This document shows positions 930-62,266 of a DNA stretch of 64,000 nucleotides, in pieces. The notes below the pieces were generated by a model that had not been told where the DNA came from, made no database searches, and saw nothing but the letters and a program-made list of their open reading frames with translations. The stretch is taken from the NCBI RefSeq assembly GCF_039555335.1, contig NC_092646.1, positions 26,027,280 through 26,091,279 on the forward strand. The letters are read 5' to 3'. The stretch's first letter is position 1; each line of letters starts with the position of its first letter. This DNA comes from Amphiura filiformis (taxonomy: Eukaryota; Echinodermata; Ophiuroidea; Amphilepidida; Amphiuridae). A program made the translations under genes and the position numbers.

Positions 930-1031
930 GTAATTCAGATGTTAGAAACAATAAGGACTATGAAAGAGGAGGAGGTGGATTTAGGCATGGTGGACCAAGA
1001 GGAAGACCAAGGAAGCAGAGGAAGCCTGGAG
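930..1031 (+). CDS. Exon: Gly/Arg-rich, basic, with AT-hook-like motif
   Basis: The acceptor is TACATTCAAG at 929 and the donor is GTAATT at 1032. The exon is 102 nt and phase 1-1. It starts like the linker exons (GNSDVRN, compare GHSDVKK at 14145), continues with an acidic/Gly stretch (YERGGGGFRHGG), and ends in a basic tail, PRGRPRKQRKPGG. It therefore looks like a linker plus a basic exon in one. The intron after it carries a GGGCTATTC-family repeat close to the donor, as after the basic exons at 16975 and 37614. RGRPRK matches the core of an AT-hook, a DNA minor-groove motif, but in a low-complexity protein this may be chance. The upstream exon is not in the window. Confidence 0.68.
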
Positions 1032-1048
1032 GTAATTAATCATGGGAA

Positions 1049-1321
1049 TGGGCTATTCAGTTGAAATCCACCCTACCCCTGTGGAAGATTTTGGAAACAT
1101 CTTTCACAGGGGGAGTATGTTTTTCAAATGTAATTGGTCAGCGTAAATCATTTTGAAACCCATACTCCTGCATTATGGTTTTTCCTATATCTTCCACAAC
1201 TGGAGTGAGTATTTCAAATGGAAGTTACCCAATTGTCTATTCAAACTTTTTACTCCCTCTGTTGAAGACTTTAGCTAAATCTTCCACAGGGGTAGTGTGG
1301 ATTTTAAATGGAATAGCCCAA
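1049..1321. repeat. GGGCTATTC-family inverted-repeat element
   Basis: The ends are TGGGCTATTCAGTTGAAATC and its near reverse complement ending GGAATAGCCCA. The inside holds several copies of CTTCCACAGGGGTAGTGTGG-like blocks in both orientations. Related copies lie at 2594, 4430, 17036, 37686, 38295, 40200, 52660 and 54590. It is non-coding and probably a non-autonomous DNA transposon. Confidence 0.75.
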
Positions 1322-1410
1322 TGTCGAGCTAAAATTTACAAAACATTTCACACATTTTGTTTATAGCAGGTCATAGCTTTCCTTTCTGGTGGTTGTGGTA
1401 TTGAATATAG

Positions 1411-1778
1411 TTAAGGGGGTACTACACCCCTCGATAAATTTGAGCCTATTTTTGCATTTTTCTCAAAAACTAATAACACACTGGTAACAAAAGTTATGTA
1501 TATTATAGGGGCAAGGAATCCAATTACTACACTGGAATTTCAGTCACCCAAGACAAGCGGTTCATTATTTATGATAAGAAATAAGGTACCGCTAGGATGT
1601 ACCTAATTTCCTATCATATATACTTAACCGCTTGTCTTGAGTCACTGAAATTTCAGTGTAGTAATTGGATTCCTTGCCCCAATAATATACATAATTTTTG
1701 TTACCAGTGTGTTATTATTTTTTGAGCAAAATGCAAAAATAGTCACAAATTTACCACAGGGGTGTAGTACCCCCTTAA
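1411..1778. mobile_element. TTAA-flanked palindromic element
   Basis: TTAA at both ends borders the terminal repeat GGGGGTACTACACCCC. The arms are about 150 nt and nearly complementary, including TAATTGGATTCCTTGCCCC in one arm and its complement in the other. A TTAA target duplication fits piggyBac- or Kolobok-type transposition. No coding capacity. Confidence 0.75.
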
Positions 1779-2000
1779 TGCCTGGGACTTGGTGACATGT
1801 GAACGTTAATCTGCAGAGCTTACACCTATGTTTCTTAACCCCCTGGACACCATCATTTCTGATTGGTTGATAACTTGAAATGCTCATTTCAATTGCCAAT
1901 TATGACTAGGCTTTAAACTATTTATGGGCAAACTTGTGTTGTTTGATGGAAAATTAATCAATTTGTTGAATTTGATTAATACATAACATATAGGCCTATT

Positions 2001-2424
2001 AGGCCAAAAAACCCCAAGTTTGTTTCCTGTAGCACGCTCGCATTACATTTTTGATGGCTTATTTTGCGCATTAGAAAAATACCCTCAAAAATGGAAAAAT
2101 TGCAAAAAAATACTATAAAACACTACTGGAGTAAACATTTACACATTACACAACAAACGAGCGTAGTGAAAAATTATCATACATTTTTTTTAATACTTTT
2201 TAAATCTGCAGGTTGAAAGGGGATCATAAATATTCTTGAATATGAGGAAATATGATTTTTTTTTTGTGTCGGAGAGTCCCACTGTAAATTCCCATTCCAA
2301 TTTGTAGCAAAAAAGGTGTTTTTTTTTCCATTTGAAAACATGGATTAAAAAAAGATAAATAAAAAACGCATTTAGCATTTGCATTTGACCTGCTACAGGA
2401 AACAAACATGTGTTTTTTGGCCTT
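2001..2424. repeat. Inverted-repeat element with GGCCAAAAAA ends
   Basis: The left end GGCCAAAAAACCCCAAGTTT and the right end, with ACAGGAAACAAACATG followed by TTTTTTGGCC, are reverse complements. The element at 30049-30317 has the same layout (GGCC plus an A-run, then GTTTGTCTC) and may be a distant relative. Non-coding. Confidence 0.6.
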
Positions 2425-2593
2425 ATCCATATAAAGATACACACATACCTACCCACGACCCCACTGGTAAGACCTGTCAACCTTATAATGAAATACAAAA
2501 GCAAAAAAATGAGGTCAGTAATTTACTGTCAAACAGCGGTTTCTGACCTAAGCGGTCAGCTGTGGGCTGATATATGAATCACTTTGAAATATA

Positions 2594-2875
2594 TTGAGCT
2601 ATTCCATTTAAAGTCCACACTACCCCTGTGGAAGATTCAGCTAAAGTCTTCCACAGGGGTAGTATAAGTTTCAAATAGAATAGACAATTGGGTAACTTCC
2701 ATTTGAAATGCTCACCCCATTTGTGGAAGATATAGGTAAAGCCATAATACAGGGGGAGAATGGGTTTCAAACTGATTTACTCTGACCAATTACATTTGAA
2801 AAACATACTCCCTCTGTGGAAGATATTTCCAAAATCTTCCACAGGGGTAGTGTGGATTTTAACTGAAATAGCCCA
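2594..2875. repeat. GGGCTATTC-family inverted-repeat element
   Basis: The ends are GAGCTATTCCATTTAAA and AACTGAAATAGCCCA, with internal CCACAGGGGTAGT blocks. Same family as 1049-1321. Confidence 0.7.
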
Positions 2876-3925: not shown

Positions 3926-3988
3926 TGGAAGAAGAAGAAGAAGACGAAGAAGATGACCTCTTCGGTGGTGGAGGCGGTGGCTGGGGAG
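3926..3988 (+). CDS. Exon: acidic block then Gly-rich tail
   Basis: The acceptor is TTTTTGTCATCTAG and the donor GTGAGT. The exon is 63 nt and phase 1-1. After joining to the exon at 930 it reads VEEEEEDEEDDLF followed by GGGGGGWGG. It is the first acidic exon of the array. The purine repeat GAAGAAGAAGAAGAAGACGA suggests growth by replication slippage. The upstream intron contains a segment shared with the intron before the acidic exon at 11072. A longer open frame beginning at 3953 is in a different frame and runs into the intron, so it is not used here. Confidence 0.68.
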
Positions 3989-4429: not shown

Positions 4430-4562
4430 GGGCTTATTCCAGTTGAAATCCATACCGGAGACATGACCTTGGGTGACTCCATTTGAAATTCACATCCCCT
4501 ATGTGTGAGTGATTGAGGGGGTCTTCCATAGGGGGTGTAAGGATTTCAACTGGAATAGCCAA
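4430..4562. repeat. GGGCTATTC-family short copy
   Basis: The ends are TGGGCTTATTCCAGTTGAAA and TTTCAACTGGAATAGCC, with two short oppositely oriented inner blocks. It resembles the copy at 17036 more than the longer ones. Confidence 0.65.
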
Positions 4563-5549
4563 ATGAACATTTAGATTCCTTGTCCTACTGTTTCCAGAAA
4601 ACAACAGCATTAATTATTTTGGGATTAAGAATATAATATCCTGTTTTGCCAATGAAACATTTCTAAATTGTAATACTGTAGTTGGATGTTACTGATAATA
4701 AAAGTAATTCAAATTGCAATATTATGCCAAGTTTTGAAAATAAGAGCCAAAAACGGCACTTTTTTGGGCTGGGACAATCAACCCCAAAGACTTCTACAAA
4801 GACTCTAACTCAGGCTCTGCATATTTCTATTCTCTTTCATAATCAATTGAAAAAAATCATAAAATAATAAAATGAAGAGCAATATCTAGCCTATCTTCAT
4901 GATTCTGAATGCTTACGCTTGGGCAAAATCTAATTGTAAGAAACATAAGAGCATATTGCTGCATTGTCATCCTGCTATGATAATTGCATTTTTTGTAGTT
5001 TTGAGAGAAAGTGCAAAATATGTTTCGAGCATGTATATAAACATATTTATTCACCAATCTTTGGTCAAGAACAAATAATAATGAGATAAATTTAAAGAAA
5101 TTATCAGAAACAAATAGGTGATTACAAAACTGATACATGTCAATTTCAGTGACTTTGGCCTGTGACTTAAGCAAATATCAGAGCAAAATCTTCAGACAAA
5201 CAGCTGGGTTAGGCATAAATTCCGGTGTTAAAATGCCTAACTCAAAATATCCTTTATGATAGGTTTATGGCAATGGCATTACTACAGCAGGTGCACATGC
5301 TAATAAAGACATGATTTTGGCAAAAAGCTCATTTTGGCTGAAAAGGAATTTAGGCAATTATCGTAGCAGGGTGACGAAATATTACAATTGGACTTTTACT
5401 GCCAGTTAGGTCTAACTAAAGGATAAGGATTATGTGTTTTATTTGTCAAAAAATTTTTTTTATATTATATATCCCAGCTGTATTTTTCTGGAATCAGACC
5501 TAGGAGTATCTAGTTTGCTTTAAAATGGACAACTTGCACATTAATAACT

Positions 5550-5948: not shown

Positions 5949-7165
5949 CCCAGGGACAGAACCCTGGACTCCAACAAATAACCATAACCCTTCAATTCAA
6001 TGGGACGGGACATTGAGAAAAATCAACAATATGAATCAAGATAATGCAATTTATGCTGTTAAAAAATTGAAATCATGCGAAAGAAATTTAAAAATCTAAT
6101 CAATAAGAAGTCTTATGTTTGTGTCCTGTTGTCACCATAGACCCTGTTCACATTAGGAAATTTGCCTCTTTCTACGAACCTCGAACGAAGATTAAAAGTC
6201 ATTTTTTCCTAATGTGTACGCACTTTTCTTCCTTCGACGAAGATTAAAATTGCTTTGTTCAACGAAGCTAAAAAGGTTGTTTCGACGAAGGAATACTTCG
6301 TTAGACGAAGCTAATTTTGTAATGTGTACGCTAAAGCTTCGTTCAACGAAGAAGAAAGTGATCATGTGACAAGTGACTTTCGCGGTTTTAATAATAGCCG
6401 GCGTTAATAGCTTCGTTCGAGCTTCGTTAATTTTCATGAAATGTGTACAGTGCAATGTCTTCATTCGGTCTTTGTTCAGCGTAATGTGTAGACATGCTTA
6501 ATTAGTTAATCAAGATTAACTTATCTTCGTCGAATGAAGAAATTTTCTAATGTGAACAGGGTCATAGATACAAACGCAAAAAATGCAAAAATCAAACACT
6601 AATTTTTTTGGATTTCCTATTACTTTAGAGCAATGTGTCACATCCGAAAGTCAAATATCACTCCATCAGACACATTACATAACTAAACTTGCTTGCTGAG
6701 AAGAATAGCAGAAGTGGGTTTCTGATTTGCTGATTGCATCACGTCATGAAAAACTATGAAAATGTAATCTGGATGCAGCTCCTGGGAGCAGCTCAGATGA
6801 ACAAAGTGCCATTTGCATCTAGAAAATTTTGCATCAAATATGTCAGGATTGGTAGAGGCTTTATCATCCAGATAATGTACTTTTAGGAAAAAGAATGTTA
6901 TACAGTATTGATGCTGAGACCCCGATACCAAAAGTAACTTCAAGTCATATGCTTTCATTGTTTCATCTACATGTAAACTATGTAATATCCCAGGGGGTCA
7001 CTGGTCATTGGGTCATTGACAAGGGGATATCATGCATGAGCATCAAGTCTCAAATAGCACCCTAAACAACTTGGGATTAGTGAGGTCTGAAAATGCACCC
7101 CCAAAACAAGTATGACAAGTGTAATTTCCTACCCTAAACAAGGATTGGCATTACCCCCCCCCCCC
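5949..7165. repeat. First copy of a 1.2-1.5 kb tandem duplication
   Basis: It begins with CAGGGACAGAACCCTGGACT and is nearly identical to 7169-7790 through its first 600 nt. After a 300-nt stretch unique to copy 2, it matches 8090-8640 (GAGCAATGTGTCACATCC and onward). The high identity of the first part implies a recent event. No exon is contained. Confidence 0.8.
6141..6562. mobile_element. Inverted-repeat element with 5-bp duplication, copy 1
   Basis: The ends ACCCTGTTCACATTAGGAAA and TTTTCTAATGTGAACAGGGT are flanked by CATAG on both sides. The inside is full of CTTCGTTCGACGAAG-like short palindromes. Non-coding. Confidence 0.75.
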
Positions 7166-7168
7166 CCC

Positions 7169-8640
7169 CAGGGACAGAACCCTGGACTCCAACAAATAAC
7201 CATAACCCTTCAATTCAATGGGACGGGACATTGAGAAAAATCAACAATATGAATCAAGATAATGCAATTTATGCTGTTAAAAAATTGAAATCATGCGAAA
7301 GAAATTTAAAAATCTAATCAATAAGAAGTCTTATGTTTGTGTCCTGTTGTCACCATAGACCCTGTTCACATTAGGAAATTTGCCTCTTTCTACGAACCTC
7401 GAACGAAGATTAAAAGTCATTTTTTCCTAATGTGTACGCACTTTTCTTCCTTCGACGAAGATTAAAATTGCTTTGTTCAACGAAGCTAAAAAGGTTGTTT
7501 CGACGAAGGAATACTTCGTTAGACGAAGCTAATTTTGTAATGTGTACGCTCGCTTCGTTCAACGAAGGAAAGTGATCATGTGACAAGTGACCTTCGCCGG
7601 TTTTAATAATAGCCGGGCGTTAATAGCTTCGTTCGAGCTTCGTTAATTTTCATGAAATGTGTACAGTGCAATGTCTTCATTCGGTCTTTGTTCAGCGTAA
7701 TGTGTAGACATGCTTAATTAGTTAATCAAGATTAACTTATCTTCGTCGAATGAAGAAATTTTCTAATGTGAAGAGGGTCATAGATACAAACTAGATCCAG
7801 CTGTGTGAAGATAAAAGAGAAGTGAATAAAGCTGTATAGTCACTCACATGGCCAATGACTGCTGGCATGAAACCTAACTTTTAAAGTAGGCGAAAGACTG
7901 GATTTCTAAGGTTGATGGTGTGTAGCAGGGAAAAGTCACATATGAGATGCAAAAATCTTCACCCCCACCCTGCACACACACCATCATACCAGTGTTGAAG
8001 TCGAGTCCTGAGTATTTGAGTCGAGAGTCTTCAGCATCCAAATCTGATTACGAGTTCTTGGCATCCAAGTCCCGAGTACAAGTCCTAAATGCAAAAATCG
8101 AACACTAAGTTTTTTGTATTTCCTATTACTTTAGAGCAATGTGTCACATCCAAAAGTCAAATATCACTCTATCAGACACATTACATAACTAAACTTGCTT
8201 GCTGAGAAGAATAGCAGAAGTGGGTTTCTGATTTGCTGATTGCATCACGTCATGAAAAACTATGAAAATGTTATCTGGGTGCAGCTCCTGGGAGCAGCTC
8301 AGATAAACAAAGTGCCATTTGCCTCTAGAAAATTTTGCATCAAATATGTCAGGATTGGTAGAGGCTTTATCATCCAGATGATGTACTGTTAGGAAAAAGA
8401 ATGTTATACAATGTTGATGCTTATTTTAACTTTAAGTCATATACTTTCATTGTTTCATCTACATGTAAACTATGTAATATCCCAGGGGGTCACTGGTCAT
8501 TGACAAGGATGACCATGAAGTCTCAAAAAGTACCCTAAACAACTTGGGATTTATGAGGTCTGAAAATGCACCCCTCAACAAGTATGACAAGTGCAATTTT
8601 ATTCCCTAAACAAGGATTGACATTAAAGCAAGTAAATGAG
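7169..8640. repeat. Second copy of the 1.2-1.5 kb tandem duplication
   Basis: It starts after a run of C residues at about 7156-7169, which may be the junction. It differs from copy 1 by point changes and by an extra segment at about 7790-8090 containing GAGTC-rich sequence. Confidence 0.75.
7359..7778. mobile_element. Inverted-repeat element with 5-bp duplication, copy 2
   Basis: This is the duplicate of 6141-6562, again flanked by CATAG. It was copied with its surroundings rather than inserted independently. Confidence 0.72.
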
Positions 8641-11071: not shown

Positions 11072-11143
11072 GTGTTTATAATCCTGATGAAGATGGAGTA
11101 GTAGGTCATACTGTGCCAAGTGAAGATGACACACCTCAGCGAG
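11072..11143 (+). CDS. Exon: acidic, EDDTPQRG end
   Basis: The acceptor is TCTGCTTAATTAG and the donor GTAAGAAAT. The exon is 72 nt and phase 1-1. It reads GVYNPDEDGVVGHTVP then SEDDTPQRG. The end is closely matched by the exon at 56088 (DEDDAPERG), and both donors are followed by GTAAGAAAT, so the two are paralogous exons about 45 kb apart. It opens the first full acidic-linker-basic cassette, followed by linker exons at 12794 and 14145 and a basic exon at 16975. Confidence 0.72.
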
Positions 11144-12793: not shown

Positions 12794-12811
12794 GTCAAGG
12801 AGGACCAAAGG
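12794..12811 (+). CDS. Linker micro-exon, 18 nt (GQGGPKG)
   Basis: The acceptor TTTATTTTTGGCAG and donor GTATGTATACACC are nearly identical to those at 14145, 29489 and 60670. The exon is 18 nt and phase 1-1. With the G of the previous exon it reads GQGGPK and supplies the first base of the next Gly. At six codons it could not be found by coding statistics. The evidence is the conserved splice context and frame shared with its paralogs. It is the parent or twin of the exon at 14145 through a local tandem duplication. Confidence 0.7.
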
Positions 12812-14144
12812 GTATGTATACACCAACAACAATTTGACATCAATGTTCATGTATTGTATACAGGGATTTCACAGGGCTTCTATTTTTATGCTTTTGCAGT
12901 TAAGGAATCAGATACAATGTAGCAACATTTGCCCAGTATTTTTTGTGGGACCCAAAAGCACACCAGACACCGAATTGCATTCTGAATACGAGGAATGTCC
13001 TTCTGATATCAAATAATTTGGATTTTTAAAAAATTGATAGTTTTAATATTTTTGATATTTAACAGTCATCAACTTTATAAAATCTAATGATATGTACTTT
13101 TATTAAGGAATCAGATAGCGTTTGCACTGTATTTTTTGTGGGACCCGAAAGCAGGATGCATTTAAAAAAACAGTATAAATCCATTAAATGGGTGCATGCT
13201 AATAACCTAATGCTATAGAGCATATGCACAAGGCAGTTTGTCAGCACTCCTGTGGCAGGACTACAGAAAAGCTCTCAGATGTAATAACCAAACTCGAGAT
13301 GACATAAACTCCAGGCATAAACTATAGCCCTAAACTACACTTGGCTACCATATTATATAAGCACCTTCATATCTAACTATTGTAACTCAACTCAGATCAC
13401 CTTTTATGTGTTCAATATCCAGCATTGAACTGAGCCTTGGATGTCCAGTGAAATTCTTACTGACATAAGAGCTCGGGACAAGTTTTTGCACATGTTTAAA
13501 AATAAGAAAGACCCTGAGCTGTATTCCAGTTACTGTATAATTAGAAATAAAGTGCAAAGACATATTTAGAAGGCAAAAGCTACTCATTTTGCTAACAAGA
13601 TGAGGAAAACAAAAACAACACCAAAGCTCTTTAGAAAGAACTCAAATCCTAGGGGTACAGCACAAAGAATAAAGATCAGTCTCAAATTGTGTTGAATATT
13701 AAGGTGGTAATGGAGGCATTTTCTACAAATTAGGAAATGGTTTGAGCATGTTTTAAACAGATTAATTGAGTAGAGTAAAGTACACTGATCAATATGCCTT
13801 TTGTTTGAAGCAAATCGGACACGGTTTTCATAATACATCAATATATATTTTCTTTGTATCTTATTGTTTTTATCAATAATCAATATAGTTAATGAGCTAA
13901 AATGACTGCAAAGGCTCATTAATATGTAATTTTTGCCAATATTTTGCTAAAAATCCATGCATTAATGTTCAGATATTGAAATCTGAAATTTTTTATATTG
14001 ATTGACATCAAACTTATTTAGTTTAATCACATCACATATATCAGTGCTGTTATATCAAATTAATTTATTATTAACTTTGTGATTTTCAAATTAATGACTT
14101 TTTTTTTCTTTTTCTTTTTATGTTTCTGTGTTTATTTTTGGCAG

Positions 14145-14165
14145 GTCATAGTGATGTCAAAAAGG
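14145..14165 (+). CDS. Linker micro-exon, 21 nt (GHSDVKKG)
   Basis: Acceptor TTTATTTTTGGCAG, donor GTATGTATACACC, 21 nt, phase 1-1. It reads GHSDVKK plus a split Gly. It is the tandem duplicate of the exon at 12794 but has already diverged in residues. GHSDV resembles the start of the exon at 930 (GNSDV), linking that exon to the linker kind. Joining it directly to 28352 keeps the frame, whereas including 16975 does not. Confidence 0.7.
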
Positions 14166-16974: not shown

Positions 16975-17017
16975 ATACGCCAAAGAAGAGGAGGAGAAAG
17001 GGAAGGAAGAAGAAAGC
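16975..17017 (+). CDS. Basic exon with out-of-phase length (43 nt)
   Basis: The acceptor TTTGTGTGATTTTATTTTTTAG and donor GTAAGTAGCC are shared with the basic exon at 37614. Entered in phase 1 it reads DTPKKRRRKGRKKK, with ten Lys/Arg. It is 43 nt, so it leaves in phase 2, unlike its 54-nt and 27-nt paralogs. Spliced to 28352 the frame would give AYT and stop; spliced to 29489 and 31031 it also meets a stop. It is either a frame-broken copy or a frame-ending alternative exon. The purine run makes a one-base slip an easy cause. Confidence 0.62.
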
Positions 17018-26992: not shown

Positions 26993-28351
26993 GGGCTTTT
27001 TTATGTAATTTTGTGCAAAATTGGTTGATTTGCCCCCTGAAATTCACATTGCCCCCAATACCCCCCCCCCCCACGAATAAAAGCGCCACCACTGAATACC
27101 TTTTGAAACTAACAAAACACCACCCCACATTGTAGCTCTTATTTCGAACTATATGACCATCTTATTTTGTTCACACCAGCCTCTTGCCATATAATTTCAT
27201 TTTAATTAAGACAAAAAAAAATAGCTTCAAAATTGCTAATGTTAATATTTTTGTATGATGACCTCTTTGGAAATCAGTTCTACTATTATGTAATTTTTGT
27301 CACTGAAGTACCATATTTTAAATCCTGAATAAAAAAAGCACAAACAAATAAACAATATAATATTAATACCCTGAGTCTGGGCCCTGATATTGTTGTGCTA
27401 TTAACCAGGAAAGTTTCTCAACTTTCCTGTATTAACTTACACACAAAGCTACTGACCTTTAAGAGCACAACACTCATGCTTAACAAATAGACACTTTACT
27501 TAAACAAAAGATGAGATTGATTGACAGCTTAAAAAGTACTTGACACCCAAACTGATGATAAGATAGCATCACTGATGCCAATTTGGAATCACTGATTCCA
27601 TTTTAGCATCACTGATTCCATTTTAGCATCACTGATTCCATTTTGGCATCACTGATTCCAAATTAGCATCAGTGATTCCAAGTTAGCATCACAGATTCCA
27701 AATTGGCATCACTGATTCCAAATTGGCATCACTGATTCCGTCATGATGCCATTTGAAGCCATTTGATGCCATTTGAAGCTATTTGATGCCATTTGAAGCC
27801 ATTTGATGCCAAAAATAGGAAAATGACGCCGTTCCACTTTTCCTAGTGATTATAAGAGACTTCTTTTGAACAAAATCAAAACCAAAAATCTTTTACATGG
27901 AATGCGATGCAAATACAAAAATAATCAAAGAATCCATTTGGATCAGAAGATGAGGACTCGATGTCATGAACAGAGATGAGGGAGTTCACTTCCTATAGTT
28001 TGATCAGCTCATAATCGGCGGGCCTTATAACATCGCAGATCAATACATTTTATTTTGAAAATTGCCTTGTGACATCTCGCCAGAAACATCACATATTGCT
28101 AATTGTATGCAGTGCACTTTTGAACACTCAAAAATGACATCTTAATTCAAAATTAAGTTTCAAAAAAATCTTTAAAAAAATAAAAATCTTTAAAAAAACC
28201 TCATTCTGCATTCGTTTTTGAAAATGCCATGGGCTTTGAGACATAGCATTACTTTTTTAGCCTGATGTGGAGAAGATTGTCTTTTAGAAGATGGTCTCTT
28301 ACAACCATAGCAAGAAATATCAATATCCAAAATATTTTTGGTTACTTATAG

Positions 28352-28441
28352 CTATACCTAATGATCCACAACCAGAAGAAGAACCAGAAGATGAACCAGA
28401 AGATGAAACAGAAGATGAAACAGAAGATGGACCTCATGCAG
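28352..28441 (+). CDS. Exon: strongly acidic, PEDE/TEDE repeat
   Basis: The acceptor is GGTTACTTATAG and the donor GTAAAAAAGAGAT. The exon is 90 nt and phase 1-1. After the split Ala it reads IPNDPQPEEE then PEDEPEDETEDETEDGPHAG. Fifteen of thirty codons are Asp or Glu. A 12-nt unit (CCAGAAGATGAA and variants) encodes the four-residue repeats. The intron on both sides aligns with that around 34923, and TCATGATTTRAATACAGG follows both donors. An ATG-started open frame covering this exon begins in the intron at 28291; the true 5' border is more likely the acceptor. Confidence 0.75.
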
Positions 28442-28980
28442 GTAAAAAAGAGATTAATATCATTTTGAATAAAAACCACCTTACTTCATGATTTAAATAC
28501 AGGGATTTATAATGCATGATTTATATAGTGCTCTTACAAAGATGTAATGGTAAGAACATATGTAAGTGGAATCTCCAAAAGGTTAATATAAATATTTTCA
28601 AAACTTTCTTCATGATTTAAATGCAGGGATTTATAATGCATGTTTTATAGTGCTATGCCCACATTTTACAGACTGTTGATGACCACTGTAGCTCCAATCA
28701 TTCCATAAACCATTTTTAAACACAGGTAACTACAGTGATTTGTAAGCTCACTTGTAAAAGTACTGACATATCACTACCAAACTCAAGGTGATGTAAAATA
28801 TAGCCCAAAATAACACTTGGCTACCATAGTATAGCATATCTCCATATCTGTCTGCTTGTTACTCCGATCACCTTTTCTGTGTTCAATATTATTAGTTATC
28901 CCCTGTTTGTTCAGTGATATTTTTCGTATTGCATATGAACAGACAGGGGGTAACGAATGTATCATTCAGTAGACATGAAT

Positions 28981-29488: not shown

Positions 29489-29512
29489 GTCATTCACCAG
29501 TATCACAACCAA
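29489..29512 (+). CDS. Linker micro-exon, 24 nt (GHSPVSQP)
   Basis: The acceptor GTTTATTTTTGGCAG and donor GTATGTATACACCAACCACA are as at 12794, 14145 and 60670. The exon is 24 nt, phase 1-1, and reads GHSPVSQP, then a base completing Lys with the basic exon at 31031. The 60-nt intron end (TTGTTTTCTTTTGTGTTTTT) is shared with the linker exon at 60670. It is the middle member of the cassette 28352-29489-31031, the most compact in the array. Confidence 0.72.
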
Positions 29513-31030: not shown

Positions 31031-31057
31031 AAAAACCAGTGAGACGCCCGAATAAAC
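31031..31057 (+). CDS. Basic exon, 27 nt (KPVRRPNK)
   Basis: The acceptor TGTGATTTTAATTCCAG and donor GTAAGTAGCC are shared with 16975 and 37614. The exon is 27 nt, phase 1-1. With the split first codon it reads KKPVRRPNK and leaves a C that makes Pro with the exon at 34923. It is the shortest in-frame basic exon and lacks the poly-Lys tract of its relatives, so it may be closest to the ancestral form or a contracted one. The intron after it has no GGGCTATTC element. Confidence 0.7.
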
Positions 31058-34922: not shown

Positions 34923-34958
34923 CTGAGGCACCAGAAGAACCAGAAGATGGAAATCCAG
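34923..34958 (+). CDS. Exon: short acidic (PEAPEEPEDGNPG)
   Basis: The acceptor is GGTTCATTTATAG and the donor GTAAGAAAGAGAT. The exon is 36 nt, phase 1-1. It reads PEAPEEPEDGNPG after joining to 31031. It is paralogous to 28352: upstream TGTAGCAAGAAAAATCAACA matches CATAGCAAGAAATATCAATA, and downstream TCATGATTTGAATACAGG matches as well. It is shorter because it has fewer copies of the PEDE unit. It begins the cassette 34923-36898-37614. Confidence 0.73.
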
Positions 34959-36897: not shown

Positions 36898-36915
36898 CTA
36901 ATGGGGTACCAAATG
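36898..36915 (+). CDS. Linker micro-exon, 18 nt (ANGVPNG)
   Basis: The acceptor is CTTTTTTTTTTGACAG and the donor GTACGTATACACCAATAAT, a diverged form of the linker donor context. The exon is 18 nt, phase 1-1, and reads ANGVPN plus a split codon that gives Asp with the basic exon at 37614. It sits exactly where a linker is expected between the acidic exon at 34923 and the basic exon at 37614. ANG recurs at the start of the exon at 41081. Confidence 0.66.
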
Positions 36916-37468: not shown

Positions 37469-37503
37469 ATGAATCTCAGAGGAGAAAAAGAAAAACTATT
37501 TAA
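37469..37503 (+). pseudogene. Decayed or terminal copy of the basic exon
   Basis: ACATGTTTGTGTGATGTTTTGTACTAG resembles the acceptor region of the basic exon 145 nt downstream. Entered in phase 1 the sequence reads DESQRRKRKTI and then stops at 37501-37503. There is no donor at the expected place. After the stop, TTTAACCATGATATATGAAA belongs to the usual upstream intron of basic exons. It is either a broken tandem copy or an alternative last exon; no polyadenylation signal is evident close by. Confidence 0.5.
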
Positions 37504-37613: not shown

Positions 37614-37667
37614 ATGGAACGCCAGAGAGAAAGAGGGGAAAGAAGAAGGGGAAGAAGAAGAAGAAAC
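37614..37667 (+). CDS. Basic exon, 54 nt, poly-Lys tract
   Basis: The acceptor is TTTGTGTGATTTTATTTTTTAG and the donor GTAAGTAGCC. The exon is 54 nt, phase 1-1. It reads DGTPERKRGKKKGKKKKK, with eleven Lys or Arg, and leaves a C that gives Pro with the exon at 41081. It is the best-preserved basic exon. The upstream intron (GATGCAAAAGTAATAATTTA) is shared with 16975 and 62235. The downstream GGGCTATTC element lies at the same place as after 16975. Confidence 0.75.
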
Positions 37668-46140: not shown

Positions 46141-46280
46141 TAAAGTGTTCTTAAAGTGTATGTAGCTGGGAGGAAAAGCCGATGATCAGTTGAAAATTTT
46201 GACCTTTCATATTGAAGATATGGATTTTTTTTCCAAAAAGACCTAATTTTTTTCTGGTGTTTTGGGTACTGTACTGTACT

Positions 46281-49200
46281 TAGTTGGGTGATCTAGAGCA
46301 ATTCCGTGACCGTGGAGAGCGAAGGTTCGTTTCTCAGTGGATTTGTCTTCTATGAAGGTTAATAAACAAATTTAGCGGGGGTGCCCCTCGCGAAAGTGTG
46401 GGCGGAATCCGTGAGAGCCCGAAATCCAAAAGTCGGCCATTTAAAAAATTATTTTTTCAATGGTTTGGCCTACAATGCTGTTCAGTATATGTTTTCTGGG
46501 GTTTTTTGGGTCGAGGAATTCATATCTGATGTCAATTTTATGATATGACTAACTTTTGATCGTCAAATCCAAGATGGCCGCCGATTTACAGCTCAGAAAG
46601 GTTAAATTGTCACATTTATCGTATAGCCTTTATAATAGGCTCTAATTAAAGTTCTCATCGTGCCAAGTTGAGTGATTGACTCTAAAAACTCCCAGTAATA
46701 ATGATTTGACCTATTTCTGACCTTCAAATCCAAGATGGCCGCCGATTTTCAGCTCAGTAAGGTCAAATTTTCACATTTGTCGTCGAGCCTTCATAATAGG
46801 CTCTAATTTAAGCTCTCAACATGCCGAGTTGAGTGATGGACACTAAAAACTACAAGTAATAATGATTTGACCTGTTTTTTACCTTCAAATCCAAGATGGC
46901 CGCCGATTTTCAGCTGGGAAAGGTAAAAATTTCAAATGCGTCGTATAGCCTTCATAATAATTATACTCTAATTAGAGCTCTGAGTAGTCGTAGAGTCTTC
47001 ATAATAGCCTCTAATGAATACCCATTCTGGCACACACATACACCCCTGAACACCTACATATACATATATATTCACATTTGAATGAGCTTAGTCTATATTG
47101 GTTTCAGGTCTACGTGTGTTTTGCTCTGCACCCTATCAACAATGAATGAATACAGCATCAAAGATATTTATATATATTAGAATGAAACATTATCCTATGA
47201 GACTAGTGCATAGATCACCTATAACACTGCTTGCTTGTTACCTACAGCAAAATCATCCCCTAACAATGTCTACTGAGATGTGGCGCAAGCCGTATCTATA
47301 AGTCGCCTGATACTATCGTCCAAGGTAAACATGGTAAATAGGAGAGTTTACAAACAAAAACGAAAAACTGGTCAGGACCTGACAAATATGGTGATTTTTA
47401 CAACATTTCTTCAAGGTAATATGGGTCTAGAAGTCATTACATGCATCACATGTTACATTATATCTCAATCTCATCTTCAGACAAGCTTGAAAAGGCTCAA
47501 TGTTCAAGTAAACCACCAAGTTCTGAAAGTGATGATGAGACAGAGGGCCATTGGCACCCAAGCGCCCAGCGTTCATCTGTGCGTGGACCTCTCCACAAAA
47601 AAAAACTAAATGTGTATGGCGCATGCAGGGTGTGGACCACGGAGTAAGCTGTTCATAATCAACACACACTCAGCATAGCGCTCTTTTAAGAGCCACACAG
47701 TCCTCGTAAAAGATGGGGAGCTGAAGGATCGTCTATTACAGCTTGTTGAGTCCACGTCAGCACTGTATGTCAGATGCTTTCGCAAATTGATATCATGTAC
47801 TACCATGCCTGCTTCGCGTCCACACCATGACCTGAATGCGCCATACACATTTCGTTTTGTCGTGGAGAGGCCCACACACACAGATGAGCGCGGGTGCTTG
47901 GTTGCCAATGGCCCCTCTGTCCCCTGGTGGTTGACTTGGACACTGAGCAATATCACTTTCTTTGATTTTGCGCGCATTGTCAGGTCTTTTCAAGCTTGTC
48001 TGAAGAATAACATGTCTGATAAGCATGCAATGACTTCTAGTCCCACATTTCCATGAAGTAGTATATTGTAAACATAACCAAAGTTGTTAAGTCCTGACTA
48101 GTATTTGGTTTTTTGTCTCGCCTGATAAGGCAGGAGACTATATAATCTCTTTTCCGTATGTATGTGTGTGGGGTGTGTATGTGTGGGGCGTGTGTGTGTA
48201 TGTGACAAATTTGGTTAAAGTTTTGGTTAAAGTTTGCCTTCCGCCTATTTTCTCGGAGATTAGGAGTCGCACGTTCCTCAAACTTGGTGGGTGGGTGCAT
48301 CTTGACACGAGACAGAACTGGTTTGTATTGGTTAGTGGGTCAAGGTCACTGAGGTCATCTAGGGGTCATCTGAGGTCAAATTAGTAAAAACTGTCGTATG
48401 GCCATGAAACTTGGTGGGTGCGGTCAATATTCAAAGCCAAATTTTTGGAAGGTCATTTCAAGGTCACCAGGGGTCATCTGAGGTCAAATTAGTAAAAACT
48501 GTCGTATGGCCATGAAACTTGGTGGGTGCAGTCAAGATTTAAAGCCAAATTTTTGGAAGGTCATTTCAAGGTCACCAGGGGTCATCTGAGGTCAAATTAG
48601 TAAAAACTGTCGTATGGGCATGAAACTTGGAGGGTACAGTCAACATTTAAAGCCAAATTTTTGGAAGGTCATTTCTAGGTCACCAGAGGTCATCTGAGGT
48701 CACATTAGTCAAAACCGTTGTATGGGCATAAAACTTGGTGGGTACAGTCAACATTTAAAGCCAAATTTTTGAAAGGTCATTTCAAGGTCACCAGGGGTCA
48801 TCTGAGGTCAAATTAGTAAAAACCGTTGTATGGGCATGAAACTTGGTGGGTACAGTCAACATTTAAAGCCAATTTTTTGGAAGGTCATTTCAAGGTCACC
48901 AGAGGTCATCTGAGGTCAAATTAGTAAAAACTGTCGTATGGCCATGAAACTTGGTGGGTACAATCAACATCTAAAGCCAAATTTTTAGAAGGTCATTTCA
49001 GGGTCACCAGGGGTCATCTGAGGTCAAATGAGTAAAAACTGTTGTATGGGCACTTGATGCAGGAATTCCAAATAATTATAATTAACATTCACTTTTTTCC
49101 GTATCGCCATAACACTTCCATTACAAGGTTCATCGCATAAGCAGGCAATTACAAAAGCAAGCGGTCGCGAAAGCAGGCGAGACTCGTGGTTCGAGAACCG

Positions 49201-51919
49201 CCTTGTGTTTGATTCAACTCCGTACAATTATATATACTGAATATCCTCCGCTCTGAGAACCATTTTGTGATGCCTCGTTGTATAAGATAAAAAGACACAC
49301 AGAGTGCTCCAGGGCACTCCGCTACAAAACGAAATGTGTATGGCGCATTCAGGGTGTGGACACGAAGCACCCGACTAAAGCGCGGAGTATAAGCTGTTCA
49401 GAATCAACACACACTACTCAGTATGGCGCTCCTTTAAGCGCCACGCATTCCTCATAGAAGATGGGGAGCTAAGGGATCGTCTTACACAGCCTCTCGAGTC
49501 AGCACTGTCGGATCCTTTTGCAAATGATATCATGTACCAACAAGTCTGTTGCTTGAAGCACGTCAAATCACACACAATTAGAGTTAGATGGTGTAATGCA
49601 TCTTCAGAATGTGTGTCTCGCAGAGCCAAGAAATTTGTTCTTTAGACATGTGGATGGATTCGATCCTTCACCGAGCACGAGATCCGTTCACGAGGCCCTC
49701 TTATTCCCTCTGTTACTTCTTCTGTTACATTGCCTGTCATAGTATCGATCTTGGCGTGCGTCAGTGTAGAAGCGATAACAATGGCTGGCTTGCTGTCTGC
49801 AATCTCCTGCGGGCAGGTTGCTGATGCTTCAAAGATCATTAGAGTCCAGTGATCTTGAAGTCAGCATAGTTGATGCAGACACGACTCTTGTGTAGAGTTC
49901 CACCAGATCTTTACTCCTCGTCATACAAGGGACATTGATGCCCAGGTTGATAACAGTGGTGGTGATCTATTCAGTGCTGTGATCATGAGGCCCGACTGAA
50001 TATGGAATGGTTGAGATCGGCAGTTTTCTCTTAGGCTGTTTTAGCCAAGTCGACAGCTTTACTCACAACTCACAGAGCTCTTCGTCTTCTTCAAGATGAT
50101 CGATATGAAGTGGCCAGGCGACAGTAGATCTGTCTTTGATCTTCTGAGACAGCCGCCGTGACAGCTGCTCATTACTGATACCAAGTGATGAAATGGCAGC
50201 CTCAGTGTCATCACCTCTTCCCCCAGTATCATAGACCCACTCACTCTTGTTCTTCTCTTGTCTCTTGATACTCATTAATAAGCATTGAGTAGGTCCTTGA
50301 GATTGGACGATTTTACAGCACCCACTGCATAGCCATAGTCACTATGCATAGCATAGTCATGCGTTTGTAGTCTGCTATAAAGAGGGGCTGCAGTGAATGG
50401 ATCCTGTGCTCAGTGAAGATGATCGAATCCATGTGTCGAAAGAACAAATTCTTTACCTCTGCGAAACGATTCCTCAGCTCCCCATCTTTTACGAGGACTC
50501 TGTGGCTCTTAAAGGAGCGCCATGCTGAGTGTGTGTTGCTTATGAACAGCTTACCCGTGGTCTATTCGGGTGCTTCAGATCCACACCCTGCATGCACCAT
50601 ATAGTTTTTTCGTGGAGAGTTCCACGCACAGATGAACGCGGGCGCTTGGGTGCCAATGGTCCCCGTCTCATCATCAATTTCATAAATTGGTGGTTTACTT
50701 GAACACTGAGCGTTTACAAGCTTGTCTGAAGATGTTATTGAGATATAATGTAACATGTGATGCATGTAATGACTTCCAGACCCATATTACCTTGAAGAGA
50801 TGTAAGTTGTAAAAATCACCATATTTGTCAAGTTCTGACAAGGTTTTTCGTTTTTGTTTGTAAACTCTCCCATTTACCATGTTTACCTTGGACGATAGTA
50901 TCAGACGAATTAGGCCCTACACGGCTTCAGTAGACATCGTTAGGGGATGATTTTGCTGTAGGTAACAAGCAAGCAGTGTTGTAGGTGATCTATGCACAAG
51001 TCTCATAGAATATGTTTCTTTCTAAATGTTAATAAATAATATCTTTGATGCTGCATTCATTCATTATTGATAGGGTACTGAGCAAAACACACGTAGACCG
51101 GAAACCAATATAGACTAAACTCATTCAAATAATGTGAATATATATGTATGTGCGGGTGTGTGTGTGTGTGCCAGAATGGGGTATTCATTAGAGGCTATTA
51201 TGAAGACTCTCGACTACTCAGAGCTCTAATTAGAGTATATTATGAAGGCTATACTGACAATTTGAAATTTTTACCTTTCTCAGCTGAGAATCGGCGGCCA
51301 TCTTGGATTTGAAAGTCAAAAACAGGTCAAATCATTATTACTTGTAGTTTTTAGTGTCCATCACTCAACTCGGCATGTTGAGAGCTTGAATTAGAGCCTA
51401 TTATGAAGGTTCTACGACAAATGTGAAAATTTGACCTTTCTGAGCTGAAAATCGGCGGCCATCTTGGATTTGAAGGTCAAAAATAGGTCAAATCATTATC
51501 ACTGGTAGTTTTTAGAGACAATCACTCAAGTTGGCATGATGAGAACTTTAATTAGATCCTATTATGAAGGCTATAGGACAAATGTGACAATTTAACCTTT
51601 CTGAGCTGTAAATCGGCGGCCATCTTGGATTTGAAGGTCAAAAGTTGGTCATATCATAAAATCGACATCAGATATGTATTCCTCGACCCAAAAAACCTCA
51701 GAAAACATATACTGAACAGCATTGTAGGCCAAACCATTGAAAAAATAATTTTTAAATGGCCAACGGCGCCATTTTGGATTTCGGGCTCTCACATATTCCG
51801 CCCACACTTTCGCGAGGGCACCCCGCTAAATTTTTTATTAACCTTCATAGAAGACAGATCCACTGAGAAACGAACCTTCGCTCTCCACGGTCACGGAATT
51901 GCTCTAGATCACCCAACTA
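46281..51919. mobile_element. 5.6-kb element with 1.2-1.4-kb terminal inverted repeats and 8-bp duplication
   Basis: The ends TAGTTGGGTGATCTAGAGCA and TGCTCTAGATCACCCAACTA are flanked by ACTGTACT on both sides, a perfect 8-bp duplication. The arms pair from the ends inward to about 47700 and 50470, including three CCAAGATGGCCGCCGATTT blocks spaced 163 nt. The 8-bp duplication suggests hAT or a P-like group. Short open frames such as that at 47441 (SSKPPSSESDDETEGH) recur in the opposite arm, but no transposase is recognisable. Confidence 0.75.
48112..49215. mobile_element. Element with GTCTCGCCTG ends and internal tandem repeats
   Basis: TTGTCTCGCCTGATAAGGCA at the left and GCAGGCGAGACTCGTGG at the right look like matching ends. 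The centre at 48340-49045 is about seven copies of a 107-nt unit (GGTCATTTCAAGGTCACCAG, then CTTGGTGGGTACAGTCAAC). A related worn array lies at 60945-61580. Confidence 0.65.
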
Positions 51920-52135
51920 ACTGTACTTCGAGTACTGTTAAATAGCAAAAATATCAATTTTTAATCATTTGCCATAAAATGTGTATTACATTGCGAATTT
52001 CAAGAAATCAAAATTATTTGATATCAGAAGGACATTCTTGGTATTCAGAATGCAATTTGATATGTCTGGTGTGCTCCAATGTCCCACAATAAATACTCTC
52101 CAAACGTTCATACCCCATCCCTTAAGTGGTTTTGC

Positions 52136-53299: not shown

Positions 53300-54585
53300 G
53301 TAAGTATCATAATTCAGTTTAATTTTTCAATTCAACCAGCCTGTGATATGTGTGACCCAATCATAGTGTAGTATTTGTATAAACACAGGCCACAAATGCG
53401 GGTCTTTAAAGCCATAATGTGTGATTTGCTCCACAGCAACGCCCTCAATTTTTTTTGAATTTCTACTTTTTGCACCATTGTAATGGCCATTGGTGTACAT
53501 AAATACCCTGTGAAAGACTAAAGCCTGAAGTGCTTTAATTACAGTAGAATTTAACATTTGTAATAAAACTGGGTCTCCCCGGTTTGATTCTGAGCTCACC
53601 GATCGAGTGCTGAATAAATACATCGCCTGCTTGTGTATATTGAATCAGTAGTTAGTTAATACACGCATTGTAGGCGCTGGAATGAAATACCAATTTTCTT
53701 TGTTTGGCCTCGTTTGTTTGGCCTCAGGCTCATTTGTTTGGCGTGAAATGAAAAAGGGACAATGCGATCAGTAAGCCATCAGTGAAAACTAACATTTAAT
53801 CTATTTTTTATGCAAATCACACATTATTGCTAATATCCCAAACTTGACTGCAAAACAAATGTCTAAAATGGCGGTAATTAATGACAATAATAATGTTGCA
53901 CCATCTGTTTTACAGTTAGACCAAAAAAGAAACTGTTTGATTGCCCTCCAGTGGGATTTTTGGGGGTGGGTCGGTCGGTTGGAAATTTTTCTTTTTTAAT
54001 GACTCTCTACTGTATAGGCCTGTAGGAATTGACATTGGTTGTGTGGAAATTAGATAAATCAATATTTCAGACCTTCAATACACAATATACACCATAGAAA
54101 TGGATTCAATTAAAATGACTGTATACTTATAATGAGACACAATTAATTGGAAACATTGATGCAGGAATGGATATTATAAATGTTAAAATGAGTTTACATT
54201 AATGATTTTCTTCTTAAGAAAATGTTATTGGCCAATTTAGCTTTGAAATGAAATTTACACACAGAAAAAGTAATAAAATTTATTTTTGCTTGAGAGCTCA
54301 TGCTCCCTTGAAAAATTCCCTCTGCCCAAAACAAACCTCTCCAATTTCATCCAATGACCTCAAAACAGATAGCATGCAGTTATTATTATCCAATTAAATT
54401 AGTTAACTTAAAGGAATTTTTAAAATGTTAATTAAGCCAAGACACATGCAAAACACATGTAAATTTGACTGAAGATTTATATTAGCAAAAAATGAAATTT
54501 GATTGCTACAAAGTTGAATTTTTTTTGCCTAAATGATGCTTGTTTTGTTTGATTTTGCTTTTTTACCGACAAATGGAGGAGGAAC
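53300..54585. other. Intron, no feature supported
   Basis: AT-rich sequence with two TTTGTTTGGCCT/TTTGTTTGGCGT motifs near 53700 and short frames without family resemblance. Confidence 0.4.
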
Positions 54586-54589
54586 ACCA

Positions 54590-54885
54590 TTGGGCTATTC
54601 CATTTAAAATCCACACTACCCCTGTGGAAGATTTAGTTAAAGTCTGCATCAGAGGGAGTATCAATTTTGAATAGAATAGACAATTTGGTAACTTCCACTC
54701 CACTCACTCCAGTTGCGGAAGATATAGGTAAAGCCATAATACAGGGGGAGTACATGTATGGGTTTCAAAATGATTACCTTTGGCCTGGGACCTCTGGCCA
54801 ATTATATTTGAAAACATACTCCCCCTGTAGAAGATACAATGTATTCCAAAATCTTCCACAGGGGTTGTGCGGATTTCAACTAGTA
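54590..54885. repeat. GGGCTATTC-family long copy
   Basis: TGGGCTATTCCATTTAAAAT at the left, with internal GTGGAAGATTTAGTTAAAGT and CCATAATACAGGGGGAGTA blocks. The right end is worn (GCGGATTTCAACTAGTA). Confidence 0.7.
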
Positions 54886-56087: not shown

Positions 56088-56177
56088 CTAATCCTTCAGG
56101 GGGATCTGAGGAAACAACACCAGCACCAGGTGAAAAAGGTCATGGTACCAATGATGAAGATGACGCACCAGAACGAG
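56088..56177 (+). CDS. Exon: Thr/Pro then acidic, DEDDAPERG end
   Basis: The acceptor is TTGTTTAATTATAG and the donor GTAAGAAAT. The exon is 90 nt, phase 1-1. It reads NPSGGSEETTPAPGEKGHGT then NDEDDAPERG. The end is paralogous to the exon at 11072 (SEDDTPQRG), while the upstream intron matches that of 34923, so all acidic exons seem to have one origin. The Thr/Pro part (EETTPAPG) would suit O-glycosylation if the protein is secreted. It starts the last visible cassette, 56088-60670-62235. Confidence 0.74.
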
Positions 56178-60540: not shown

Positions 60541-60669
60541 ATATTGTATATTAATTGTATTTACGCACCTGTGTGTGGGGTCCATCTTAATTACGAACCG
60601 TGTAATTCTAGTTTCGAAATTAATTAATTTGTATTTGTTTTCTTTTGTGTTTGTGTTTATTTTTGGCAG

Positions 60670-60702
60670 GTCATGGAGCACCAAAAGGTCATACAGAACC
60701 AA
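60670..60702 (+). CDS. Linker exon, 33 nt (GHGAPKGHTEP)
   Basis: The acceptor is GTTTATTTTTGGCAG and the donor GTATGTACACACC, both of the linker type. The exon is 33 nt, phase 1-1. It reads GHGAPKGHTEP and leaves an A completing Lys with the basic exon at 62235. It looks like two fused linker units (GHGAPK and GHTEP). It lies between acidic 56088 and basic 62235, as in the other cassettes. Confidence 0.72.
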
Positions 60703-60944
60703 GTATGTACACACCACCAACAATTTGACATTAATGTGCTTTGTGTAACTTTTTAACTTTTTATTTTTATAACTTTGCTGTGAAGTTCAGAAGCATGATT
60801 TTAAGAAGCATCAATTTTTTTAGTAAAGTTTTGATTAAATGTTCACATGTGAAAAGTTCAAATCTCATTGCAAGCAAACTTGGGTCGTGGGTGTACTATG
60901 GGAATCTTCATGTTATGATTTTGTGTCAAATAATATAATTTAAA

Positions 60945-61580
60945 GGTCATTTCAAGGTCACTGGATGTCATCTGAGGTCAAATTAATAAGTTTGGTTCAG
61001 TGAAATATTAATAAAATGTTCTCAGGTGAAAGTTCACATCACATTACAAGCAAACCTCCGGCATATATGGTCATCTTCAACTCGGACTGGGTGGAGGTAA
61101 GAATTATGGGGAATTTCAAGGTCAGTGGAGGTCATCTGAGGTCAAATTAATGAAGTTGTGAACAGAAGATCATTCAAAGATCATCAAGGGTTATCTGAGG
61201 TCAAATTTGTAAATATTGCTTGATTTTCATAAAACTGGGTACTTCTACTTCAAAAATATGCAATTTTTTCAAGGTCATTCCAAAGTCATCAGGAGTCATC
61301 TGAGGTCAACTTAGCAAAAATTGTTGGATTTTCATCAAGCTTGATGATATGGACTTTTATAAGGTCATAAAGGGTAATCTGAGGTCAAATTAGTCAAGAA
61401 TGTTGGATTTTCATGAAACCTGGTACTTAATACTCCACATCATTTCAGGATCATAAGCGATCATTTGAGGTCAAATTAGTATTATAGTATGATGTTGGAT
61501 TTTTATGAAACTTGGCTTTATAATGTTCCAATTGATTGCAAAAGCAGGCAAGACTTGTGGTTCAAAAACTGCCTTGTTCT
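60945..61580. repeat. Worn GGTCATCTGAGGTCAAATTA repeat array
   Basis: CATCTGAGGTCAAATTA-like cores recur about every 70-110 nt. The run ends with GCAGGCAAGACTTGTGGTTC, matching the right end of the element at 48112-49215 (GCAGGCGAGACTCGTGGTTC). Confidence 0.7.
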
Positions 61581-61611
61581 GAGAAATTTCCCTCATTTCT
61601 CAAATTCTTTG

Positions 61612-61960
61612 CACGGTGGCCGAGCAGAACATGCTGCGACTCATAATTGGGAAGGTTGCGGGTTCGAGCCCCAACGATGCCATTGTGTTGTGCCCTTCAG
61701 TAAGGCACTTTATCTCGATTACTCTTCTCCACCAGGTGTGTAAATGGGTACCGGCATTCTTAAATGCTCGGAAGGTAACAGACTCGCTGTGGAGGAGGTG
61801 TGGCAATCTCCCCACAGAAACATTTCATGGTGGAGTCTGGCCTAATTGCTAATGAAAGAGAGATGGGAACTCTGTCCTGTAAAATACAGGTTCGACTCCT
61901 TACCTTTACTTTATTGTCACTCTTTTCATGCGATGGAAGTGCTGCTGCTTTTATGAGATG
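61612..61960 (+). mobile_element. tRNA-derived SINE
   Basis: GCACGGTGGCCGAGCAGAAC has an A-box-like stretch and GGTTGCGGGTTCGAGCCCC 35 nt later is a good B-box; together these are the internal RNA polymerase III promoter of a tRNA. A non-tRNA body follows (TTCAGTAAGGCACTTTATC, TAAATGGGTACCGGCATTC). The tRNA acceptor stem is not complete, so it is not a working tRNA gene. The open frames on both strands here are chance. Confidence 0.78.
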
Positions 61961-62234
61961 CATTTCTTGGTCTTCTGATTTTAAAAAAATTGATTTTGGA
62001 TTGCCATTTTCACTTGTTTTAACCTTGTTTTTTACTGCATAATTTCCCTAATTTATCCCGGTTTAAGCCCGGTTCTCTTTCCAATACATTAAACCTTGAC
62101 TCCAAAGTATTTGGCAACTGTTTAACCATGATATATGAAAATAACCTTTATGCAAAAGTAATAATTTAGTTGTCTAAAAGAAAGGATCGCCGGTTGCCCC
62201 ACATTTAACCTGTTTGTGCGATTTTATTTTCTAG

Positions 62235-62266
62235 AAAAAGGAAGAAGAAGAGGAGGAGGAAAAAAA
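62235..62266 (+). CDS. Basic exon, 32 nt, leaves in a different phase
   Basis: The acceptor is TGTGCGATTTTATTTTCTAG and the donor GTAAGTATCC. Entered in phase 1 it reads KKGRRRGGGKK and, being 32 nt, ends in phase 0. A second GT four bases downstream (GTAAGTATCC, second GT) would give 36 nt and restore phase 1 with an added Val. So either the array ends here and joins a phase-0 exon beyond the window, or the copy has slipped. The upstream intron contains GCAAAAGTAATAATTTAGT as before the other basic exons. Confidence 0.64.

Follow-up and report, generated by a model that had tools for sequence, protein, structure and literature searches.

Several described genes build protein regions from series of short exons, and they are the closest points of comparison for an exon array that we report here from a 64,000-nucleotide stretch of DNA of the ophiuroid Amphiura filiformis (contig NC_092646.1, positions 26,027,280 to 26,091,279 of the forward strand; called the window below, with all positions counted from its first letter). 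For Treacle (TCOF1), a figure legend gives 11 motifs in exons 6A-16 (PMC7957619), roughly one to an exon, and a Treacle variant of the same net charge with scrambled blocks has been made to test charge patterning (PMC11996177). The PEVK region of titin is described as having more than 100 short, alternatively spliced exons, with poly-E among lysine-bearing PPAK motifs (PMC6469411, PMC9100103); a PEVK finder uses a threshold of 0.54, and mammalian means are 0.79 and 0.84 (PMC6469411). In tropoelastin, two alternating kinds of domain are laid out on exons with phase 1 borders, some exons being optional (PMC3458006). The schistosome MEGs hold most of their coding sequence in very small symmetric exons and yield splice variants, some have high dN/dS in the mature part, and they are reported as apparently confined to flatworms (PMC4350168). 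The MaSp2 spidroin genes of Argiope alternate exon types, with iterated homologous introns that average 97.6% alike by homogenization (PMC9779670). The Amphiura array is made of short exons of three kinds: acidic (A), Gly/Pro/His-leaning linker (L) and Lys/Arg-rich, basic (K). With moderate confidence we read it as part of one animal gene, in which four tandem copies of an ancestral acidic-linker-basic unit would encode a disordered stretch of alternating charge, regulated by splicing. The exon anatomy and order, the duplication of exons together with introns, the frame of the A and L exons and the charge pattern are established observations.

From 11072 to 62266 the array exons follow one another along the plus strand in the order A-L-L-K, A-L-K, A-L-K, A-L-K (Table 1). 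All 13 copies lie on a single strand and carry AG...GT borders, and GTAAGT stands directly 3' of each of the four K exons. Two upstream candidates, K0 and A0, bring the count to 15; a possible extra exon, K3p, was not counted. Preceded by a K-type acceptor region (E 0.0066), K3p lies ~110 nt upstream of K3 and has no donor at its end. The label order ALLKALKALKALK fits the pattern (A L+ K)x4, which was matched in only 7 of 200,000 label shuffles. Net charge follows kind, ranging from -5 to -15 in A, from 0 to +1 in L and from +3 to +9 in K exons. Charged phase 1-1 candidates, sought in a loose scan, number 42 on the plus and 30 on the minus strand; single charged candidates are thus common, and it is homology and order that carry the case. 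A preliminary description of this DNA had placed the exons at these positions, as we find them, and had them alternate as acidic, linker and basic; the alternation stands up to the shuffling of labels, except that unit 1 contains two linkers, L1a and L1b.

Table 1. Exons, exon candidates and a shared intron block of the array, in window positions
Feature	Positions	Strand	Properties
K0, candidate exon	930..1031	+	102 nt, phase 1-1, NSDVRNNKDYERGGGGFRHGGPRGRPRKQRKPG, net +7, Gly/Arg-rich
A0, candidate exon	3926..3988	+	63 nt, phase 1-1, VEEEEEDEEDDLFGGGGGGWG, net -10, Gly-rich
A1, acidic exon	11072..11143	+	72 nt, phase 1-1, net -5
L1a, linker exon	12794..12811	+	18 nt, phase 1-1, GQGGPK
L1b, linker exon	14145..14165	+	21 nt, phase 1-1, GHSDVKK
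K1, basic exon	16975..17017	+	43 nt, not a multiple of 3, DTPKKRRRKGRKKK, net +9
A2, acidic exon	28352..28441	+	90 nt, phase 1-1, in-frame 12-nt repeat, net -15
A-to-L intron block, unit 2	28647..28889	+	homologous to 35411-35664 (unit 3, 75%)
L2, linker exon	29489..29512	+	24 nt, phase 1-1, GHSPVSQP
K2, basic exon	31031..31057	+	27 nt, phase 1-1, EKPVRRPNK, net +3
A3, acidic exon	34923..34958	+	36 nt, phase 1-1, AEAPEEPEDGNP, net -5
L3, linker exon	36898..36915	+	18 nt, phase 1-1, ANGVPN
K3p, possible extra basic or last exon	37469..37503	+	DESQRRKRKTI then stop; candidate
K3, basic exon	37614..37667	+	54 nt, phase 1-1, DGTPERKRGKKKGKKKKK, net +9
A4, acidic exon	56088..56177	+	90 nt, phase 1-1, net -6
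L4, linker exon	60670..60702	+	33 nt, phase 1-1, GHGAPKGHTEP
K4, basic exon	62235..62266	+	32 nt, not a multiple of 3, AAAAAAA before donor, net +5

Kind-specific homology of the flanking introns is the second strand of the case. Profiles built for each exon kind plus flanks and searched on both strands of the window recovered the known copies and no further full A, L or K copy. The K profile also gave two weak partial matches, one at 54545-54630 (E 0.0012) and one at 4521-4600 on the minus strand (E 0.0031), both of them overlapping a dispersed repeat. Intron sequence of the A type recurs at 28583-28655 (E 2e-4, profile search), and apart from the acceptor region of K3p the remaining matches were weaker. 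Because the flanks of K0 and A0 share no convincing homology with the array in these searches (E 0.014 and 0.16 against the K profile, and 0.42 for A0 against the A profile), we treat both as weaker exon candidates. Pairwise comparison of flanks covered 12 of the 13 array exons (all but L1a), giving 18 within-kind and 48 between-kind pairs. Mean identity over the 60-nt upstream flank was 67.9% within kinds vs. 49.2% between kinds, and over the 60-nt downstream flank 61.8% vs. 48.7%. The Mann-Whitney p was ~3e-9 on each side for pairs that are not independent, and the ranges overlap, the within-kind minimum being 50.0 on both sides and the between-kind maximum 61.9 upstream and 54.5 downstream. 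As identity is higher within kinds than between them, the likeness is not accounted for by common splice signals, and the homology of flanking introns within each kind, as earlier proposed, is borne out.

The likeness is confined to the immediate surroundings of the exons. Over the adjoining 60 nt, upstream and downstream respectively, mean identity is 72 and 66% for L, 70 and 63% for K, and 61 and 57% for A, and in the next 60 nt it is 43.6-49.1%, except for 56.3% upstream of K exons (where K3 and K4 reach 87%); random 60-mers give 45.2 +/- 4.5%. K1 and K3 are 66% identical in the next 60 nt downstream, and a dispersed repeat follows both. Farther than 60-120 nt from the exon, nearly all pairs of copies are about as similar as expected by chance. 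The exons themselves average 44-50% identity to one another, only 3-10 points over shuffles of the same exons, in a measure that counts gaps and is pulled down by unequal exon lengths, whereas flank identity is 7-23 points above that of the flanks' own shuffles. Positive selection on the exons was considered and set aside: L1a/L1b and K1/K3 appear to far exceed the divergence of their flanks in one alignment, but not when gaps are placed more freely (Fisher p 0.71 and 1.0).

Larger blocks of intron point to the history of the array. The block between A and L in units 2 and 3 also partly matches 13236-13426 in unit 1, between L1a and L1b, so that three of the four units share it; none was found in unit 4, and no other match in the window falls below E 0.018. 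This common block indicates that whole units were duplicated with their introns. The surroundings of L1a and L1b are themselves duplicated (82% over 424 columns), and this pair is a later local copy. The nearest copy differs by kind: among A exons it is A2-A3, by the upstream flank, and among K exons K1-K3, and L1b, L2 and L4 are about equally close. A simple whole-unit duplication tree would not give these kind-specific pairings, and exon-level conversion is possible. The plain reading is of an old duplication after which the distal introns apparently drifted near randomness, while splice-side flanks, order, charge class and, for A and L, the reading frame were kept; that the array seems to have preserved splice context along with these features, rather than exon sequence, is the new result.

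Frame was kept unevenly across the three kinds. Lengths are multiples of 3 in 11 of the 13 array exons (13 of 15 with K0 and A0): in all nine A (72, 90, 36 and 90 nt) and L exons (18, 21, 24, 18 and 33 nt), and in two of the four K exons (43, 27, 54 and 32 nt, K1 being 1 and K4 2 modulo 3). The binomial p for 11 of 13 is 2e-4 if exons are independent, but the copies share ancestry; a stricter count that takes only the A and L length changes gives p about 0.004. Earlier the exons had all been called phase 1-1, and hence free to be duplicated or skipped without frame loss. That holds for most of them, and they were indeed duplicated with their introns, but two of the four basic exons, K1 (43 nt) and K4 (32 nt), break the symmetry. 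Of the 15 exons, all are open in phase 1, 13 are open in phase 0 and 6 in phase 2. Multiplied together, the open-frame chances from random windows come to 10^-5.85, a value biased by exon choice, the sole part of this test free of selection bias being the array exon borders, which are fixed by homology. Tracts with at least 31 purines of 33 and 8-25 G are found, on either strand, only in K1, K3 and K4, each beginning no more than 7 nt from the first base of the exon. When K1 is skipped the frame is open through the end of K4. For K4 a one-base length difference at its run of seven A, real or an assembly error, is plausible. Downstream of K4, at 62880-62960, is a long pyrimidine tract with an AG at ~62898, a possible candidate for the next acceptor. 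Taken together, we consider the array exons very probably coding, though not proven to be so.

To describe the product we joined 14 exons, without K1, into a peptide of 227 amino acids that is rich in Gly (42), Glu (31), Pro (30), Lys (24), Asp (20) and Arg (16), has no Cys and only 7 Ser, and has 22 residues in the set AILMFWVC. It carries 40 positive and 51 negative charges (charged fraction 0.40), and its charge blockiness is 0.152, vs. 0.043 +/- 0.009 for shuffled versions, none of 5000 reaching it. With all 15 exons, and G placed before each first base, the counts are 48 positive and 54 negative. The predicted product is by composition a disordered polyampholyte, in agreement with the preliminary description. 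The joined peptide matched no Pfam family and, by sequence, no PDB entry at E up to 1. Over all three plus-strand frames of the 64 kb (15 pieces, E up to 0.1) no Pfam match passed its cut-off; the single sub-threshold match, to PF25018 (E 0.021, 14.7 bits vs. a cut-off of 27), was taken as chance. On the minus strand five open stretches were scanned, and two plus-strand stretches were also scanned alone; among these seven, every Pfam match but one, to PF00078, fell below the family cut-off. Given no Pfam domain on the plus strand, the 64 kb shows only disordered pieces of the protein, and a folded part would lie outside it or be too finely split to be seen.

We suspect, then, that the alternating-charge stretch belongs to a larger protein, the first exon and folded domains of which fall outside the window. 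A and K exons would supply blocks of opposite charge, spaced by the L exons, each exon shifting net charge by a fixed step (-5 to -15 for A, +3 to +9 for K). Symmetric phase 1-1 exons can be skipped or copied without a change of frame, and skipping may be in use here. Ancestral alternative exons are classified by features that include conservation of the flanking introns and a length divisible by 3 (PMC1635713); A and L exons show both, and K1 and K4 fail divisibility, conservation being gauged here between copies rather than between species. These features make regulated skipping a natural hypothesis, and the most likely use of the array would be for regulated splicing to set the number and balance of charge blocks. 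K1 and K4 would then be skipped, frame-changing or terminal exons, or hold single-base sequence errors. Because the 60-nt flanks are better kept than the exon sequence, selection seems to hold frame, charge class and splice context, while residues drift. By analogy with block polyampholytes, the product would self-associate or bind charged partners through its blocks; association by way of opposite blocks has been argued for Treacle (PMC11996177). A bolder form of this idea, to which we give rather little credence as a whole, is a charge code set by splicing: kind-specific exons and flanks would let the cell choose how many blocks a condensing or matrix-forming polyampholyte has, the order of the blocks and the net charge, units would be added by tandem duplication, selection would keep splice context and charge class but not residues, and K1 and K4 would act as built-in terminators. 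Should transcripts confirm the array, it would be a natural gene that encodes charge patterning exon by exon and could alter it block-wise by splicing. It would also offer duplicates that keep their splice context while coding residues drift, and so inform the evolution of disordered regions constrained only in composition and order.

Several points weigh against a coding, spliced array of duplicated units. The exons were initially picked as open and charged, which biases the open-frame statistic, and phase 0 is open nearly throughout as well. K1 and K4 are asymmetric, K1 joined to A2 runs into immediate stops, and a join of all 15 exons breaks in A2. The identity among K exons is barely above that of composition-matched shuffles, 9 of 300 of which reach it; the extra divergence of exons over flanks hinges on the treatment of gaps, two alignments disagreeing; and gene conversion could also yield conserved flanks. 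The Pfam scan could miss domains that cross piece borders or are split over short exons. Finally, coding status is predicted here from the DNA sequence of one species.

Some of these points are turned to account by other explanations. The basic exons might be alternative last or poison exons, so that each A-L-K unit may end the protein with a basic tail. Such a role would suit the asymmetric lengths of K1 and K4, the stops in the K1-A2 join, the stop that terminates K3p, the AATAAA or ATTAAA found within 1.5 kb after K1, K3 and K4, and the first stops at 0.3, 1.7 and 1.7 codons beyond the ends of K1, K2 and K3. The donor consensus GTAAGTAG, however, itself creates a stop in these phases, so that the nearby stops are not independent evidence; K0 and A0 likewise reach a stop at 1.7 codons, and K4 does so only after 19. 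Neither AATAAA nor ATTAAA occurs within 1.5 kb of K2, AT-rich DNA contains many such signals by chance, and GTAAGT has been kept after all four K exons in spite of flank drift at K2 and K4. We think this explanation unlikely, and we hold a decaying array, formerly coding, with frame now lost in K1 and K4 and flanks slowly diverging, to be more improbable still. Decay would explain why half of the K exons are off frame, why exon sequences are near chance similarity and why K3p is without a donor. But all nine A and L exons have stayed in frame despite their length changes, and in a dead array flanks and exons should decay alike, yet the flanks are the best-kept part. If transcripts are absent, what is left is a decayed array of modest interest. 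That the array is not a gene at all, its exons deriving from transposons or being chance purine-rich stretches whose borders look like splice sites, seems to us very improbable: the window is indeed rich in transposons and dispersed repeats, one of which follows K0, K1 and K3, and short charged candidates are not rare (42 on the plus vs. 30 on the minus strand in the loose scan), but the array copies share strand and A-L-K order, their splice borders fall at the same place within each kind, and there are no further full copies in the window.

Two other proposals are sub-cases of the single gene with duplicated charge units, and their likelihoods are not to be added to its own. A nuclear or nucleolar protein, Treacle- or Nopp140-like, with blocks that drive condensation around RNA or DNA, can be put forward tentatively. 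The joined peptide has the alternating blocks and K-rich stretches for it, and the GRPRK of K0 resembles an AT-hook core, with no Pfam match. Phase 1-1 modularity, on the other hand, is more typical of extracellular genes; acidic and basic pieces lie on separate exons; and with only 7 Ser in 227 residues there are no S/E-rich clusters. A precedent is the central region of Treacle, described as made of diblock ampholytes, which stabilizes condensates (PMC11996177). The other proposal, a secreted matrix, adhesive or elastic polymer with alternating exon modules like those of elastin or spider silk, is doubtful. Tropoelastin does alternate hydrophobic and cross-linking domains with phase 1 borders (PMC3458006), and spider MaSp2 has alternating exon types and homologous introns (PMC9779670), but the Amphiura peptide, with its 22 of 227 residues in AILMFWVC, has no hydrophobic elastin-like or poly-Ala modules, no signal peptide is in view within the window, and against the 97.6% likeness reported for the silk introns similarity here ends within 60-120 nt for nearly all pairs.

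The remainder of the window is AT-rich, eukaryote-like DNA (36% GC by base counts over the 64 kb) in which self-comparison and repeat searches found abundant transposons and dispersed repeats. Dispersed self-matches of the whole window, including the array's own, number 85 direct and 45 inverted, and a dispersed repeat was found after K0, K1 and K3. Upstream of the array is a direct duplication of ~0.6 kb (5949-6575 and 7167-7791, 98.6% identity). The long intron from K1 to A2 holds two inverted copies, 95% identical and ~7 kb apart, of a block with a 20-bp minisatellite (19906-20294 and 27464-27849). On the minus strand at 44231-46150 are pieces of what we take to be a non-LTR-type retrotransposon: its reverse transcriptase stretch (44778-45437) matches Pfam PF00078 (2.2e-31), and the adjoining open pieces on that strand had no Pfam match above cut-off. 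An inverted pair of 1.5 kb, 89% identical (46280-47732 and 50466-51920), encloses a 108-bp tandem array of 6.5 copies at 48352-49049, and pair and tandem array are perhaps a single transposon-related structure. An open stretch on the minus strand at 31807-32313 presumably resembles a Penelope-like element, its sole Pfam match lying far below cut-off. Searches of the window gave no tRNA and no Rfam match at gathering scores. Exact patterns drawn from two of its repeats and from flanks had no match in viral contigs, and one of the repeat patterns had none among prokaryote contigs.

The opinion in the preliminary description that no described family has this layout was too strong, given the charge repeats reported for Treacle and the exon arrays reported for titin PEVK. 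Among the matches listed in our literature search, judged by title and start of abstract, none dealt with separate acidic, linker and basic exon kinds. As in Treacle, charge blocks alternate along the chain, and the Treacle repeats, as described, follow exons; each is, however, an S/E-rich cluster plus a basic linker, whereas here the unit is split over three exons. The Ser-rich acidic clusters of Treacle and Nopp140 are also missing, the A exons being rich in Glu, Asp and Pro, with 7 Ser in the 227 residues. In size and symmetry the exons here (13 of the 15 symmetric, at 18-102 nt) recall those of the MEGs, but we know of no regular order of three charged kinds described for the latter. Alternating exon kinds and introns homologous within kind recall MaSp2 as reported, but in the Amphiura array it is mainly the 60 nt beside the exons that are alike, exon sequences are not homogenized and near-identical introns were not found. 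With titin PEVK, as far as it is described, the array shares short exons with acidic and lysine-bearing pieces. Membership by composition was rejected: over all exons the PEVK+A fraction is 0.45, and only 4 of the 15 reach 0.54. No Ig domain or other titin part exceeded the Pfam cut-off in the plus-strand frames of the window, outside which the remainder of the gene would lie. Elastin is approached in the phase 1 borders, which are mostly found here too (13 of 15 exons symmetric), but the hydrophobic and Ala-Lys cross-linking modules are lacking, charge taking the place of hydrophobicity. The array would resemble Treacle, titin PEVK and elastin in its working, and while membership of none of them can be claimed, its layout, unusual as it is, belongs to a general type that is known.

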